IMG/VR virus record: IMGVR_UViG_3300025525_000047 | Location: 1 to 48,347 of that record | From: a virus | Reading direction: 5' to 3' (one strand) | DNA: 48,347 nucleotides | In this document: positions 19,414 through 48,347 of the stretch, in pieces | How positions within the stretch are numbered: the first letter of the stretch is position 1 | Layout of the letters: every line of letters begins with the position of its first letter | Notes under the pieces: generated by a model | What the model was told of the DNA's origin: nothing | The model's input: the letters and a program-made list of their open reading frames with translations, nothing else | Database searches by the model: none | Position numbers and translations under genes: made by a program

Positions 19414-20352
19414 TTATTTTCTAGGTCCTAAAAACCTATCCCCATTGAAATGAATCAAGTGATCAGGTATATCCATTAACCAAACCTCTGTTTCCCATGC
19501 GATGTTGTTTGAGTGCTTTTTAAACTCAGCCATATCAGGAAAGGCCGTCACATATATCTTTCCAGCAGAACAGTGCTTTAAAAGATCGTCTATTTCGACA
19601 ATTCGTTTTGGAGAAACAGGGCCATGAGAGGTCACAGCTTCAATCAAAAACAACCAGTTTCTATTTTTATCATAAATTACTACATCCGGTAGCTTGCTGT
19701 GTTGATCAATAGGAATATTAAGTGAGTTAAGTGTTTCTTGATCAAGATATAAATTCTTTTTTGCAGTGTCACCAAGATAAAGCAATAGTCCTCCGGGAGC
19801 AAACCTTGTTGCAAACTTTTCAATTATTGCTGCCTGAACCTCATTATGTCGACCAGAGGAAAGATTGATAGTTTCACCGCTTTGTAATCGAACCGGGATT
19901 TGGTTCATCTTCCTTTCTTTAATGTAGATTTCCGATAGCTTTACATAGGAGTCAAGAAAAATTGAAAGTTCATTTTCCCATTTCAGCGTACCGTATGTTT
20001 GAACCACTTTTAAGAACTGAGGAGTTAATGCATAATGAGCACGTGGACTATTCACTGGCAAATCAGGAATATCTGGATTGTAGTTTGCAATCCGAGCTTG
20101 CACGAATTGATGTAAAACTTGTCTTCTGAATGTTTCTCTTGTGTTAGGCGCATAGCTTTTGCTGTAGTGCTCGTTTACGAATGACATTATGCCTTTTGTG
20201 ACAGTTAAACTTCTACCTGTTGCATATTCCCAAGAATCATCCTCTTTTATCTGTGCCAATGCAAGTAGAGTTAAGCCTGACAATTCATTACATTGTGCGG
20301 GTGGAAGCCCTAAGGCTGAAAGAATTTCTTGAGATTCCCTAATTTTGGTCAT
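19414..20352 (-). CDS. Type II restriction endonuclease, BsuBI/PstI family
   Basis: A 312-residue enzyme with the family's signature in its C-terminal half: LPDVVIYDKN at 221-230 and FLIEAVTSHGPVSPKR at 235-250, which supply the PD...E nuclease core. The N-terminal half contains a helical domain with TRETFRRQ at 71-78, as in the family. BsuBI and PstI cut CTGCAG, and if this member does too, the phage's own DNA needs protection: CTGCAG occurs for example at 2205, 4988, 14988, 24656, 27321, 33597, 35668, 37351 and 45863. It is encoded 6 bases after the methyltransferase. Confidence 0.9.
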   Translation of the reverse strand: MTKIRESQEILSALGLPPAQCNELSGLTLLALAQIKEDDSWEYATGRSLTVTKGIMSFVNEHYSKSYAPNTRETFRRQVLHQFVQARIANYNPDIPDLPVNSPRAHYALTPQFLKVVQTYGTLKWENELSIFLDSYVKLSEIYIKERKMNQIPVRLQSGETINLSSGRHNEVQAAIIEKFATRFAPGGLLLYLGDTAKKNLYLDQETLNSLNIPIDQHSKLPDVVIYDKNRNWLFLIEAVTSHGPVSPKRIVEIDDLLKHCSAGKIYVTAFPDMAEFKKHSNNIAWETEVWLMDIPDHLIHFNGDRFLGPRK

Positions 20353-20358
20353 TTTGTG

Positions 20359-21948
20359 TCAAAGATTAATATGAAGTATATTTTTTATCAGAAGATTAAC
20401 ATTATCCATGCTGTAATTATTTGATTCAATTAATCGTTCTCCAATTTTTAAAATGAGTTCATAAGGAGGTAATTTCATCTCTCTTATTTCCGTTGCACTT
20501 ACATTTACGTTACCATTAAAAGACTGAAAATAAATATTATACAGGTCACTATTCAGTAAAGCACAAAGACCTATTACCTCAGTTTTTTTCATACAGCCAT
20601 TCTTTCGATAAATATAATTCAGTTTGTTTTCAAGACCTATCAATTTATATTCCTGATCATCAGAAAAAAATGGGGCTGCTATTAATCTACTTTTGTCATC
20701 CTTTGAACTAAACCTTCTAAGGATAATGTAATCCTTGGCCGGAACAAGAATTGACATTGATTCCGGACAAAATTCTATGAATTGACCTTTCCCTTTTATC
20801 ATTTTTGGCCATTCGATCTTCATTTTACAGATATTTTGTAGCCAAAATAAACTAACGCTTTGCACATCCTTACTAGGTTGGTCCTGTATGAATTTTATTG
20901 CCCTGAAAGAAACAACAGGCCCTGTTGAAACATGAATATCGAAGTCTCTTATTGTATTGTGCCAAGAGTTAACAAGCGAAAAAACAATTTCTTCACGTTT
21001 GTTTGAAGGAATGTGTAATATTTTTTCAGTCGAATTAAAGTCAATCAGTTCTTTGAGTAAATAGGATTTGCTATCTGAATTTGCGATATCTTCAACCCCG
21101 TTACTTGAAGAAATTTTCACAACGATGTCTTCAGCTTTTGATTGTTTAACAGCCCTAAGTATCAAAGTCTCTTGCAAGACACTATCTCGGTTGAAGGCAT
21201 CTTTTCGTGAGTTAAAGAGATGGATATTTGTAATAACTACATTCTTGAAAAACTCTAACCGAAAGGATTTAAAGTAGTTGCCTGAGGCAAAACTTCTTGG
21301 TGTGATGAAAATCAACTCCCCATATCTCTTGAGTAGTTTGGAAGATATCCCAAGAAATAATGCATAGATATTTGGCTGGCCACTTACCAACTCTTTTGCG
21401 GCTATTGCCTTCTCATCATCCCGTGACAGCTTGAAATAAGGAGGGTTTGAAATAATTATATCATAGAATTTCGGAAAAAAAGTTGATTCTTGCTCAAAAT
21501 ACCCATGGTTCTGAATCCTGAGAACAGTGGAGTTTGTTGTTACAAAATCTGTCTTTATAATAGTGTAAATTAACACTTTACCATTTGCCTTTACCCATGA
21601 TTGAAGATATGAAAGAGCCTGCTCAGTGTATGGAATGATTTCTTCATCAGTTTCATAACCTACCAAATTGATGTTTTCAACTTCATTACTGTGTAAAATA
21701 AGTTTTTCAACTAAAGCACAAGAAAGCACCCCCAAACCAATGCCTGGGTCACAAATATCCATACTTCGACTTTTAAACTGAGAAAGTGATGCCATAAGCT
21801 TAGCAACTTTCGTTGGTGTAAAAAACTGACCTTTGACTTTTTTACCCTTAACAGCATGACTGTTTGAGTAGATTACTCCAAGTCTATCAGCATAGCAACT
21901 TGGTAGTTCATTTTTTATCGAGGGGTGTGTAAGTATTAAATTGAGCAT
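20359..21948 (-). CDS. N6-adenine DNA methyltransferase of the R-M pair
   Basis: A 529-residue methyltransferase. SAM-binding motif I is DPGIGLGVLS at 67-76, preceded by the GQFFTPTKVAKLMASL motif (40-55) usual in this group, and the catalytic motif IV is NPPY at 168-171. The C-terminal part (beyond 300) should be the target-recognition domain. With the BsuBI/PstI nuclease downstream it forms a type II system expected to methylate the A of CTGCAG. The methyltransferase is translated first, which lets modification precede restriction. No controller protein gene was seen. Confidence 0.9.
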   Translation of the reverse strand: MLNLILTHPSIKNELPSCYADRLGVIYSNSHAVKGKKVKGQFFTPTKVAKLMASLSQFKSRSMDICDPGIGLGVLSCALVEKLILHSNEVENINLVGYETDEEIIPYTEQALSYLQSWVKANGKVLIYTIIKTDFVTTNSTVLRIQNHGYFEQESTFFPKFYDIIISNPPYFKLSRDDEKAIAAKELVSGQPNIYALFLGISSKLLKRYGELIFITPRSFASGNYFKSFRLEFFKNVVITNIHLFNSRKDAFNRDSVLQETLILRAVKQSKAEDIVVKISSSNGVEDIANSDSKSYLLKELIDFNSTEKILHIPSNKREEIVFSLVNSWHNTIRDFDIHVSTGPVVSFRAIKFIQDQPSKDVQSVSLFWLQNICKMKIEWPKMIKGKGQFIEFCPESMSILVPAKDYIILRRFSSKDDKSRLIAAPFFSDDQEYKLIGLENKLNYIYRKNGCMKKTEVIGLCALLNSDLYNIYFQSFNGNVNVSATEIREMKLPPYELILKIGERLIESNNYSMDNVNLLIKNILHINL

Positions 21949-21968
21949 CTTGTCTACTTGAGGAGAAT

Positions 21969-23270
21969 TTATAATTTGAATATATCCATGGAAAGAAACG
22001 AGAGCTTATCATCAACGAAACAAAGATCCTCATTAAAGCCAAAAACACGGCAAATTCGTTGTGATACATACTTTCCAATGTTATGAATATCTTTCTCAGT
22101 TAATTTTGCTGGGGAAACCTTTCTCGAAATCTTAAAGTTCTGATGTTGTCGATTATTTATACTATTTCGCATATGAATATGCCTAAGGTCGTACTGGTTA
22201 TGAACTCCATATGGATAGTAGTTTAGTACATTTTTAAAGCTTATCTGAAATAAGCATTCTTCACTGATTCCAAAATGTTGATAAACTAACCTTAAGAACC
22301 CTAAAAACATCATAGAATAACCAACTATTGGAGTTAGATGAATTTCAACTTGATTATGGGGAACTTCGTTTCGATCTTTGCATAGACGAGTAAAAGAACT
22401 CGAAAATCCAGCCTCAACAAAACCGTTTTCTAACATTTCAAGATAAGATGTGGGGTATGAATCTATTCTATTGTTTATGATAACAATGCCGTCAATTTTA
22501 TGCTCGTAGTCGTCATGTACAAAAAATAAACGTTTATCTGGAAATGGGAGGTGTCCTAAAGAGTTCTTTTCAAACCAACTATGAATACTGTTGGTACTTA
22601 TTTCTATTTTCTCGTTAAACAGTTCACTGGGAACTAAAGTAAACAAAACAACTGGTTTCTTATAGTCAGTTTTGGTGTGAATATCTGAGAAAAGCTGCTT
22701 TGAATTAAAATTGTCTGCAAATTGCTCACTATCTATGTCCAGTAAATTACGGGAGGTTAAAAAACTATTGAACTGGTCTAACCTGCTTCTTGAATTATCA
22801 AACATGTCTCTAATTTCATAATGTTTTGCAACATCAATTTTGTCATTACGTCTTATATGATAGGTGTTCTTATCCCTCACCATGTGAGGTTTATTCTTAC
22901 TTTCTGGAACCTGAATAATGAGAATTACTTTCAGATTGTCTGGGATAGGTATGATAACCGGGTCAACGTAGTGAATTGGGGGCTCAATATTTGATGAGAT
23001 GATCTGGTTGAACCATTCAATAACAGGCCTTCCATTTATTTCGGCTTCAACCCCAATAATTTCAAGTTTATCCGAAATACCGAAAACAAGAAATCCACCA
23101 GTTGCATTGGAAAATGCGGACAAATCTTTAGCAAGTTGTGTCTTGCCTCTATCGGATAAATCAATATTCTCTTTATAATCGAGGTACTGACCTTCCTTTT
23201 CTTTTGTATTTACAACTAAATCATAAATGTCGTCGTAATTTAATTCTGAAACTTTCTTTGAAAATATCAT
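21969..23270 (-). CDS. AlbA_2 (Schlafen-type) domain protein, possible defence component
   Basis: A 433-residue protein whose first ~150 residues are an AlbA_2 domain: EGQYLDYKENIDLSD at 26-40, AFSNATGGFLVFGIS at 52-66, and YHIRRNDKIDVA further on. AlbA_2/Schlafen domains bind nucleic acid and some cleave RNA. The rest (about 160-433) is not a family I recognise and may be the effector or sensor. It stands 5 bases after the 225-residue gene and 20 bases before the methyltransferase, so it is part of the same cargo run. A defence role is inferred from the neighbours. Confidence 0.75.
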   Translation of the reverse strand: MIFSKKVSELNYDDIYDLVVNTKEKEGQYLDYKENIDLSDRGKTQLAKDLSAFSNATGGFLVFGISDKLEIIGVEAEINGRPVIEWFNQIISSNIEPPIHYVDPVIIPIPDNLKVILIIQVPESKNKPHMVRDKNTYHIRRNDKIDVAKHYEIRDMFDNSRSRLDQFNSFLTSRNLLDIDSEQFADNFNSKQLFSDIHTKTDYKKPVVLFTLVPSELFNEKIEISTNSIHSWFEKNSLGHLPFPDKRLFFVHDDYEHKIDGIVIINNRIDSYPTSYLEMLENGFVEAGFSSSFTRLCKDRNEVPHNQVEIHLTPIVGYSMMFLGFLRLVYQHFGISEECLFQISFKNVLNYYPYGVHNQYDLRHIHMRNSINNRQHQNFKISRKVSPAKLTEKDIHNIGKYVSQRICRVFGFNEDLCFVDDKLSFLSMDIFKL

Positions 23271-32329: not shown

Positions 32330-32599
32330 TTAGTTTGGATTGATTGGAAAATCAGGTTTCTCAAAAAAGACTGTTTCTTCAGCTGACATCCATACCGGAG
32401 GTTGGGTGTGTCCGGAAAGAACAGATAGCCATATCCGGCCGGTACGGTTAACCTTTGCTAGTTCTTCCGGAGTCAATTCCCAGCAGGAAATACATTGCTT
32501 TCCATCGGTGAACACTGGTAGAGGAGAGCATTCCTCCTCTGATATTCCTTTGGGTGGTCCAAGCTGTTGATTCTGCTCTTTAAACTTTACTGGTTTCAT
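32330..32599 (-). CDS. Small conserved Bacteroidota phage protein
   Basis: An 89-residue protein with KPVKFKEQNQQLGPPKG at the start and CISCWELTPEELAKVNRTGRIWLSVLSG followed by QPPVWMSAEETVF. The pattern of ISCWxLTxxE..K...TGxxWLSVL...QPPVxxS is one I recognise from small proteins in Bacteroidota phages and conjugative elements, function unknown. It overlaps the symporter gene by 20 bases and lies directly upstream of the next gene. Confidence 0.75.
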   Translation of the reverse strand: MKPVKFKEQNQQLGPPKGISEEECSPLPVFTDGKQCISCWELTPEELAKVNRTGRIWLSVLSGHTQPPVWMSAEETVFFEKPDFPINPN

Positions 32600-33986
32600 C
32601 TTTCAATGTGATTGATATGAGACCTGAAGCAAGGATGGTAAAGAGTGATCCTGTAACAATCAATAGCGTATTGCCAGAGAAGTTTCCAATTGCGAAAATT
32701 GGAAGACCTATTGTGATACTGGTCAGAAGTCCATAGAACAATCCTTTTTCGCTCATCTTTATGCCTTTGATTGCAAAGGCTGTTGGAAGCATGACTGAAG
32801 CTCTAAGGGTGCCATAGATCAGGAACAGGTGTAAGATCTTCAGTCCAGGGATGTTGGATATTGTGATTGCTAAAAAGGTTACAACAATCATTGAAAACTT
32901 TGCAACCTGAACAGGAGACCATCTTCTGAATCCTTCAAATCGTTTCACCAGATCATGGCCCGAAACAGAAGAAACAGCGCATATGATACTGTCAACAGTG
33001 GAAATCAGGCCGGAAAGAATCATGACCATGAAAACATACAAGAACCATTTAGGTGCAAAAGCCATCACAGCCCCTACATTGACAAGTTGTGGGTCTGTAA
33101 TATCTAAACCTTTTCCTGCAACAAAAAAGCCGAAAATCGCAAGAGAAAGCGGTACAACTCCAAAGATTGCTGCTGCCCAAAGCATTGATTTCTTTACCTG
33201 ACCTTCTTTGATGGACCATATTCTTTGCCAGAACATCTGATCTCCAAATGTCCCGGATAGAAGTCCTATCGTTGTAGGAATTCCGAATGCAAGTGTTACA
33301 GCTAATCCTTTACCGCTAAACATCCCATGTATGTCGCCAGCTTTTCCGGAAAGCCCCTGCAAGAGTGTTTCTGTTCCTCCACCATTGATGAACATAAACG
33401 GCAATCCAATAAGTAGTACTATCACTATCCAGAGCATCTGCCAGTAATCAGTCAGGATGCTGGCTTTAATGCCCTTTGTGTAAGTGTATGCAAGTGGAAT
33501 AACAGCAAGCAGAACTGTTGTAAGTGTGAATGGTAGACCTGTAATTTTCCACATGATTGTTGCTCCGGCAAGGAGCTGCACTGCAAAGCTGAGTATCTGC
33601 AGACCGAAACTTTCAACTAGGTAGAGATTGTGTGTCCTGTTACTAAACTTTGTCCTGATGAAATCAGAGAATGTCCAGCCATGAGGATGCATTTCTCTCA
33701 TCCAGGATGCGAAGTATGCAAAGATTACAAGTGTTAAAACGTTTGGTGTAATAAACCAGAAAACACCAACCCAACCAGCAGTATAGGCTTTCTCTGAAGC
33801 AATAAACATTGCCGGTGCCCATACCCATGTTGCAGCCAGTGAGAATGCTGCCATCCACCAGGGGATGCTGCGGTTGGCAACAAGATAGTTCAGTTTGGAC
33901 GTGTTTCCTTTTCGGATAAATTTTGTGATAAGGGATACTGCGATGAAGTAAAACAGCAGTAATAATGCTCCATGTGTCTGTGTCAT
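32580..33986 (-). CDS. Sodium:solute symporter (SSS family)
   Basis: A 468-residue membrane transporter with about 13 hydrophobic helices. It has the SSS start pattern (NYLVANRSIPWWMAAFSLAAT), a helix-3 region GWTFSDFIRTKFSNR, and the family's STVDS-like sodium-site motif in SGLISTVDSIICAVSSV at about 330-346. It is the first gene of late operon A, directly below the late promoter, and its start is at the ATG at 33986. The substrate cannot be told; urea, sugars, nucleosides and organic acids are all known for the family. An inner-membrane transporter in a late phage operon is unusual. Confidence 0.9.
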   Translation of the reverse strand: MTQTHGALLLLFYFIAVSLITKFIRKGNTSKLNYLVANRSIPWWMAAFSLAATWVWAPAMFIASEKAYTAGWVGVFWFITPNVLTLVIFAYFASWMREMHPHGWTFSDFIRTKFSNRTHNLYLVESFGLQILSFAVQLLAGATIMWKITGLPFTLTTVLLAVIPLAYTYTKGIKASILTDYWQMLWIVIVLLIGLPFMFINGGGTETLLQGLSGKAGDIHGMFSGKGLAVTLAFGIPTTIGLLSGTFGDQMFWQRIWSIKEGQVKKSMLWAAAIFGVVPLSLAIFGFFVAGKGLDITDPQLVNVGAVMAFAPKWFLYVFMVMILSGLISTVDSIICAVSSVSGHDLVKRFEGFRRWSPVQVAKFSMIVVTFLAITISNIPGLKILHLFLIYGTLRASVMLPTAFAIKGIKMSEKGLFYGLLTSITIGLPIFAIGNFSGNTLLIVTGSLFTILASGLISITLKDETSKV

Positions 33987-47110: not shown

Positions 47111-47677
47111 TTAGGATTTTACGATTTGATAAATGTTTCTTGTAAGTTCAATGTCATAGGTAGCATCGTGAAGTTTTGATTCATCGATACCACCTAGTAG
47201 GTGTGCTGCAACTGTCATAAGTTTGAAGTTGAGCATTGTGTGTCTTTCAGAAAGTAGGTGTTGAGTAGCCAGCACCATTACGTCCAGGGGGTTTGACCAG
47301 AACCAGCTACCGAAGTACTTATCTCCGTTGCGCTCAAAAAAGGCACGGAGAAAACCGTTGTCAAAGGCTGCATTGTTCCAACCGGCCAGAAAAGCCTTGT
47401 CAAATTTGTCAAACTTGTCAATGTAGTCCAAAAGCATTGCAATGAACTTTCGGTAAACCTCTGCTTCAGAGGGATAGCTCATAAGATCCTCACGTGTTAC
47501 ACCGGAAACTTTAAGGGCTATATCTTCAATGATCAAGTTCTCGGCTGGTTTGATTTTGAAGTCAAAAGATTCAACCACTTTGCCGTTTACTTCCAGTATG
47601 CCAGAAAGCTGGTGCATGCCGTTGTTCATGTAATCAAGACCTGTTGTCTCAACATCGAAAAATAGGATTTTTGTCAT
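47111..47677 (-). CDS. DnaQ-like 3'-5' exonuclease
   Basis: A 188-residue DEDD exonuclease. Motif I is FFDVETTGLD (Asp8, Glu10), motif II is NAAFDNGFL at about 99-107, and motif III is HDATYDIELT at about 172-181, where His and Asp form the DEDDh set. It probably proofreads or trims DNA ends in phage replication. No DNA polymerase gene is present here. It overlaps the next gene by 4 bases. Confidence 0.9.
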   Translation of the reverse strand: MTKILFFDVETTGLDYMNNGMHQLSGILEVNGKVVESFDFKIKPAENLIIEDIALKVSGVTREDLMSYPSEAEVYRKFIAMLLDYIDKFDKFDKAFLAGWNNAAFDNGFLRAFFERNGDKYFGSWFWSNPLDVMVLATQHLLSERHTMLNFKLMTVAAHLLGGIDESKLHDATYDIELTRNIYQIVKS

Positions 47678-48141
47678 GATGCTTTTTGTGTTTCAGTTGA
47701 AAGTAATTGGATAGCTTCATTAAGAATGTTTACCGCTGATTCAAGACCTTTGATCCTTGAATACTTGCGTATGAAGCTTTGTAGTTCATTGTAAGCGGCT
47801 CTACGGATAAATTCAAAATCGTCTGTTGTTATAGTATCAATTGGCTTATAGGTTTTAACTTCTTGAACCTTTACAAAAGCGTTTTGATTAATGAACTCAG
47901 GCTTTTCATGTTCCACAATTACAACAGCACGGATTATTTCACTGGCCTGTCCGAGCCTGTATTTATGGCCAGCAATTGAATCGTTCCACTCAAATAATGG
48001 GTGAAGGGGGTTGTCACTTTCTTTGGCCTTTTCGACCACAATGTCAGGTTTTATTTCAGGAAGTGATTCCAGAAATTCTCCTACTACCTGGGCTACAACT
48101 TTCGTTGATATATAGCCTGTTCTCCATTCAAATTTTTTCAT
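47674..48141 (-). CDS. Conserved phage protein of the early block, unknown function
   Basis: A 155-residue protein. The segment NPLHPLFEWNDSIAGHKYRLGQASEIIRAVVIVEHE is typical of a widespread phage family of unknown function (SPLHxxFEWDDxxAAxxYRxxQAxxIIRxxxV). The N-terminal helix (STKVVAQVVGEFLESL) and the C-terminal helix (EFIRRAAYNELQSFIRKY) fit. It is the first gene of the early transcript in this window; its ATG is at 48141, about 32 bases from the GGCNN array. Confidence 0.8.
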   Translation of the reverse strand: MKKFEWRTGYISTKVVAQVVGEFLESLPEIKPDIVVEKAKESDNPLHPLFEWNDSIAGHKYRLGQASEIIRAVVIVEHEKPEFINQNAFVKVQEVKTYKPIDTITTDDFEFIRRAAYNELQSFIRKYSRIKGLESAVNILNEAIQLLSTETQKAS

Positions 48142-48173: not shown

Positions 48174-48347
48174 TACCTGCCACGCCTTGCCCTGCCATGC
48201 CACGCCTTGCCCCGCCAGGCCTCGCCCCGCCTGCCTTGCCTTGCCCCGCCAGGCCTCACCGGGCCGTGCCCCGCCGGACCTCGCCGTGCCACGCCTTACC
48301 TGCCTCGCCTTACCTGCCTCGCCTTGCCTTGCCCTGCCGAGCCTCGC
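48174..48347. repeat. GC-rich array of 5-base GGCNN units (NNGCC on plus)
   Basis: About 36 consecutive units of 5 bases, each ending in GCC on the plus strand (a few ACC, and a few 4-base TGCC units), run to the window edge. The two variable bases differ from unit to unit (ACGCC, TTGCC, CTGCC, CCGCC). Two exact 19-base copies (CCTTGCCCCGCCAGGCCTC at 48205 and 48239) and a 14-base one (TTACCTGCCTCGCC) lie inside. The rest of the window is AT-rich. It lies upstream of the first early gene. The far end is outside the window. Confidence 0.9.

Follow-up and report, generated by a model that had tools for sequence, protein, structure and literature searches.

A truncated GGY/NN repeat array at the end of a viral contig is almost certainly a new example of the phage VIPR system

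The closest described system is VIPR (Viral Interference Programmable Repeat), presented in a 2026 preprint (PMC13142463, doi 10.64898/2026.04.26.720920). According to the account given there, a RAMP-like protein, Vipr, works with vrRNAs composed of 9-16 YNNGG repeats and an invariable 3' tail. The NN dinucleotides of the vrRNA recognise double-stranded DNA with a 1-nt skip, and the outcome is the repression of competing phages and satellites. The preprint also reports seven types, six accessory genes (vap1-6) and staggered arrays with overlapping vrRNAs; the systems it describes include SUSP1 and P. fulva, and its pull-down data identify the GGY/NN repeats as RNA bound by Vipr. A literature search combining the term vrRNA with phage returned no other paper, and searches on GGCNN and on pentanucleotide repeats in phages returned nothing relevant.

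Two other guide-array systems share some of these features. In CRISPR systems with Class 1 RAMP effectors, RAMP-fold proteins likewise read a guide RNA (as stated in PMC13142463), but CRISPR arrays consist of long direct repeats and unique spacers, whereas in the array reported here the variable part takes up two of each five bases. TIGR-Tas (PMC12045711) also involves tandem guide arrays carried by phages for DNA targeting; as described in that source, it is set apart by another type of array and another protein family.

The DNA analysed here (hereafter, the window) is the 48,347-nt IMG/VR record IMGVR_UViG_3300025525_000047, a linear fragment. The contig end falls inside the array, which is therefore truncated, so that its 35 GGY units do not represent the full length. 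The features of the locus, all on the minus strand, were as follows:

48175..48347, minus strand: GGY/NN (vrRNA-type) array of 35 GGY units, cut by the contig end (spacing parse and shuffles)
48315..48347, minus strand: block 1, at least 6 units, 5' end missing, last unit a 4-nt GGCA (array parse; putative meaning of blocks)
48301..48314, minus strand: block 2, 3 units, GGTAA GGCGA GGCA (array parse)
48232..48300, minus strand: block 3, 14 units, the last GGCA; NN = AA GT AC GA CC GG AC CC GA CT GG AA AA (array parse)
48178..48231, minus strand: block 4, 11 units, the last GGCA; NN = GG GA CT GG AA GT AT AG AA GT (array parse)
47674..48141, minus strand: phrog_15946 gene, 155 aa, probable VIPR accessory gene (family match, E = 4e-16)

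Read on the minus strand from 48347 down to 48175, the array contained 30 GGC and 5 GGT trinucleotides. The spacing between successive GGY was 5 nt in 30 cases and 4 nt in four cases, with no other value observed. In 2000 shuffles that preserved dinucleotides, links at 5 bp averaged 2.1 and never exceeded 9, versus the 30 observed here. When GGC alone was considered, 24 links were counted, versus a mean of 1.3 and a maximum of 9 under a first-order model, and a mean of 9.4 and a maximum of 21 under a second-order model, which already takes up much of the repeat pattern. The NN positions used 10 of the 16 possible dinucleotides over 30 units, and GC content was 0.75 in the array versus about 0.39 in the genome. 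The array at the window end is thereby confirmed as real.

The initial annotation had counted about 36 units with a constant GGC. The array itself stands, with 35 units, but its constant part is GGY rather than GGC, and four of the units are 4-base GGCA, which break the 5-nt register. The internal duplications it mentioned were visible by eye, GAGGCCTGGCGGGGCAAGGC being present twice, and the position before an early gene was agreed. It had also pointed out that all frames stay open over long stretches; this is because no NN pair is TA, and is not evidence of coding. TA dinucleotides and stops were present in the arrays of relatives, and coding sequence was ruled out on this basis. A CRISPR array was rejected as well: a tandem-repeat scan detected only period 5 and near multiples, with a constant part of 3 nt, versus the identical direct repeats of about 20-50 nt found in CRISPR, whose unique spacers are of similar length.

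Compared with VIPR as published, the window array exhibits the same GGY/NN pentanucleotide repeats with hypervariable NN, is carried by a phage, and is intergenic, beside a small, probable accessory gene; in addition, relatives of the locus encode Vipr homologues. The differences are that vipr is unseen in the window, as the contig ends, and that the array is continuous, with 4-nt GGCA breaks. Moreover, only about 33 nt separate it from the next gene, which leaves no room for a long folded tail there. The blocks between GGCA breaks comprise at least 6, 3, 14 and 11 units; the vrRNAs of the preprint have 9-16 repeats. A search of the window against Rfam at gathering thresholds gave no match.

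To place the array among other genomes, viral contigs were scanned for six GGCNN units and bacterial and archaeal genomes for nine units, each scan yielding at least 120 stretches; given the different unit numbers, the contrast in entropy is meaningful but the counts are not comparable. Among the matches listed, nearly all those from bacteria and archaea were of low entropy, e.g., (GGCAA)n, whereas those from viruses mostly exhibited near-random NN. High-entropy arrays proved common in viral contigs; the initial annotation had suggested a search of phage genomes. The viral arrays that were read closely were intergenic and GC-rich, even with AT-rich flanks. A BLAST search of the window array and its flank against GenBank phages gave no match. 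Three bacterial MAG contigs (L160, L179 and L234) carried high-entropy GGCNN arrays with no Vipr match in the available stretch. Two viral contigs without Vipr contained microsatellites, namely a perfect (GGCAC)n in L125 (9715-9772) and a near-perfect (GGCAA)n in L116 (6676-6748); these are slippage repeats that mimic the GGCNN pattern.

Genes ending a few bases before arrays frequently encoded a terminal G-rich motif resembling GDFRPxYGRF. We aligned 31 of these array-preceding proteins (alignment A1), 30 of which matched PHROG 4652, a family of unknown function; a Pfam search with the Vipr homologues of A1 identified no family. A search of the PDB with the A1 profile gave a single strong match, to chain D of 36pp, 'SUSP1 Vipr protein' (E = 6.9e-38). 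Among the matches listed, a profile search detected Vipr in 73 of the 97 loci with a high-entropy array versus 0 of the 118 loci with a low-entropy repeat, and array-Vipr pairs within 3 kb were on the same strand in 151 cases out of 155, with a median distance to the nearest array of 20 bp; this tie is partly by construction, as the members of A1 were picked beside arrays, which does not apply to the 0 out of 118 or to the 40-odd Vipr loci outside A1. The other 24 high-entropy loci had no Vipr in the available stretch, some of them being cut by contig ends. The plain GC-rich sequence in relatives that the initial annotation had named as evidence against its reading was not what we found: the pattern recurred next to a single protein family across unrelated viral contigs. 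In the window, a profile search over the 48 kb found no Vipr homologue; the contig ends on the side where vipr sits in loci with the order vipr-array-phrog_15946.

The phrog_15946 gene lies directly after the window array, on the same strand. This family adjoins vipr in about 29 other loci, and was the commonest among the other array-preceding genes (14 out of 59). Two loci, L011 and L012, were fetched solely via a relative of the window gene and both carried an adjacent vipr; L011 combined vipr and the phrog_15946 gene with no array in the available stretch, and L012 had a degenerate array. The order vipr-array-phrog_15946 was observed in L047, L097 and L112, in the Gordonia phages UmaThurman and Ecliptus, and in cyanophage Cy-LDV1. 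The window shows the array and the phrog_15946 gene of this order, and then ends. Other loci had the alternative order vipr, phrog_15946 gene, array. The window protein, which is likely a VIPR accessory protein, gave a predicted model with a pLDDT of 90.8; a fold search against the PDB yielded no match at E ≤ 0.001, and Pfam no family above cut-off.

In the annotated genome of Gordonia phage UmaThurman (NC_031249.1), a GGY/NN array (2666-2974) underlies annotated gene 40 (2674-2997), between gp39, a Vipr homologue, and gp41, a phrog_15946 protein; gene 40 is probably not protein-coding. Ecliptus, Cy-LDV1 and Mycobacterium phage Quico carry unannotated VIPR-like loci, each composed of a Vipr homologue, a GGY/NN array and a phrog_15946 gene, and located near repressor or excise genes.

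Overall, we are highly confident that the window array is the vrRNA guide array of a phage VIPR system, with vipr probably just upstream and lost where the contig broke inside the array. This reading is based on the exact GGY/NN grammar, the tie between high-entropy arrays and Vipr, the match to 36pp, the phrog_15946 neighbour, the gene order and the GGCA breaks. The repeat grammar, together with the neighbour gene, strongly supports membership in VIPR at the sequence level, and the locus is almost certainly a truncated new example of VIPR and not a new system. By analogy with the published systems of SUSP1 and P. fulva, a GGY/NN-repeat RNA would be transcribed from the minus strand of the array and coated, via the GGY bases, by a small RAMP-like Vipr protein. 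The NN dinucleotides would then pair with double-stranded DNA, one target base being skipped between dinucleotides, and binding of Vipr and its guide would repress genes of competing phages or satellites. The array may thus act as an RNA-guided DNA-binding repressor in phage-phage conflict; transcription of the array, vipr in the window phage and any target are what we infer here.

The absence of vipr from the 48-kb window could also be explained by an orphan or decoy array, through which a phage without its own vipr would use or jam Vipr from another phage or prophage, and some high-entropy arrays elsewhere do lack a nearby Vipr. We consider this improbable, as the contig stops exactly at the position of vipr in same-order loci, and vipr is adjacent in the roughly 29 phrog_15946 loci mentioned above. 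Still less probable is a protein-binding array or structured element acting at the DNA level (origin, packaging site or regulator site), each unit of which would span half a helical turn. Although it would account for the regular 5-bp spacing and the position before an early gene, the 4-nt breaks spoil helical phasing, the strand shared by arrays and vipr in 151 out of 155 pairs within 3 kb is a better fit to RNA, and such repeats were pulled down as Vipr-bound RNA, as reported in PMC13142463. Among the options listed in the initial annotation, those of a protein-binding array and an RNA element are retained in that the data favour a guide-RNA array bound by a protein, whereas a replication or packaging start and a recombination hot spot found no support.

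A simple slippage repeat or an assembly artefact might be suspected for an array that sits at a contig end, all the more so as bacterial genomes often carry simple (GGCNN)n microsatellites. Such microsatellites have low NN entropy, with Vipr in none of the 118 loci among the matches listed, whereas 10 different NN occur among the 30 units of the window array, in agreement with the initial view that the constant/variable pattern is not a slippage product. The same grammar was also found far from contig ends, and in the genomes of annotated phages, which makes slippage or artefact the least credible of these explanations, with only a very slight chance of being correct.

Within the VIPR reading, the GGCA breaks would correspond to guide boundaries, where the transcript would be cut into separate vrRNAs. 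In loci carrying phrog_15946, 4-nt breaks, mostly GGCA, represented 120 of the 1373 parsed 5- or 4-nt steps, versus 36 of 1953 in other VIPR loci (nominal P = 2e-20, which is overstated, as the loci are not independent). Blocks between breaks mostly comprised 6-13 units in phrog_15946 loci; the window, which has four such breaks, departs from a uniform guide length in that two of its blocks comprise 3 and 14 units. Locus-specific constant linkers were observed between repeat blocks in L058 (5698-6053; ACCGCA), L080 (14631-14819; GGTAACGCCGACAA), L101 (3673-3985; AGTTNC) and the array of L227 (GGACTTCG), and may mark guide ends in those other VIPR loci.

Targets were searched for by decoding blocks with the 1-nt skip between NN dinucleotides, as published in PMC13142463. 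Block 4 taken as 10 units gave 0 hits, and block 3 taken as 9 units gave 2 hits, with 0 for its shifted version. As 8 units, block 4 matched six contigs, including an exact 8-unit match in two related AT-rich contigs (L265 and L266), corresponding to the residues GELGKVIR in a family-A DNA polymerase. The reversed-order control of the same block gave 3 hits, all codon-aligned too. The matches of the window blocks are thus at chance level, with no convincing target, and neither support nor refute targeting. Similarly, a decoded UmaThurman block searched against 301 genomes of the family of Nocardia flavorosea gave one 1-mismatch hit, taken as chance. We regard as rather unlikely the more specific proposal that phrog_15946-bearing VIPR loci constitute a separate class, with one continuous transcript whose successive guides would be delimited by the 4-nt GGCA break instead of a folded tail, and that block 4, read as GGn GAn CTn GGn AAn GTn ATn AGn, would match the polymerase segment above in rival phages.

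The terminase of the window was 59% identical to that of vB_RanS_PJN03, a Riemerella-named phage, the next closest being from Croceibacter and Cellulophaga phages. From these relatives, the host is probably a member of the Bacteroidota; close relatives sought via the ParB-like protein were not found. Elsewhere in the window, a region of lower GC content (19414-23270) encodes, side by side, a BsuBI/PstI-type restriction endonuclease, an Eco57I-like methylase and a Schlafen AlbA_2 protein, and is likely a cargo or defence island. A sodium:solute symporter family protein (PF00474), encoded at 32580-33986 in this phage contig, is possibly host-derived cargo.

With this locus, the range of VIPR, which to date rests on a single preprint from 2026, would extend to a phage probably of Bacteroidota. 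DNA sequence by itself is enough to detect VIPR arrays, using the GGCNN pattern and a filter on NN entropy, and contigs can end inside them. Unannotated VIPR loci exist in deposited phage genomes, including those of laboratory Gordonia and Mycobacterium phages. Finally, phrog_15946 marks a recognisable group of VIPR loci, and its protein has a confidently predicted fold without a solved relative.
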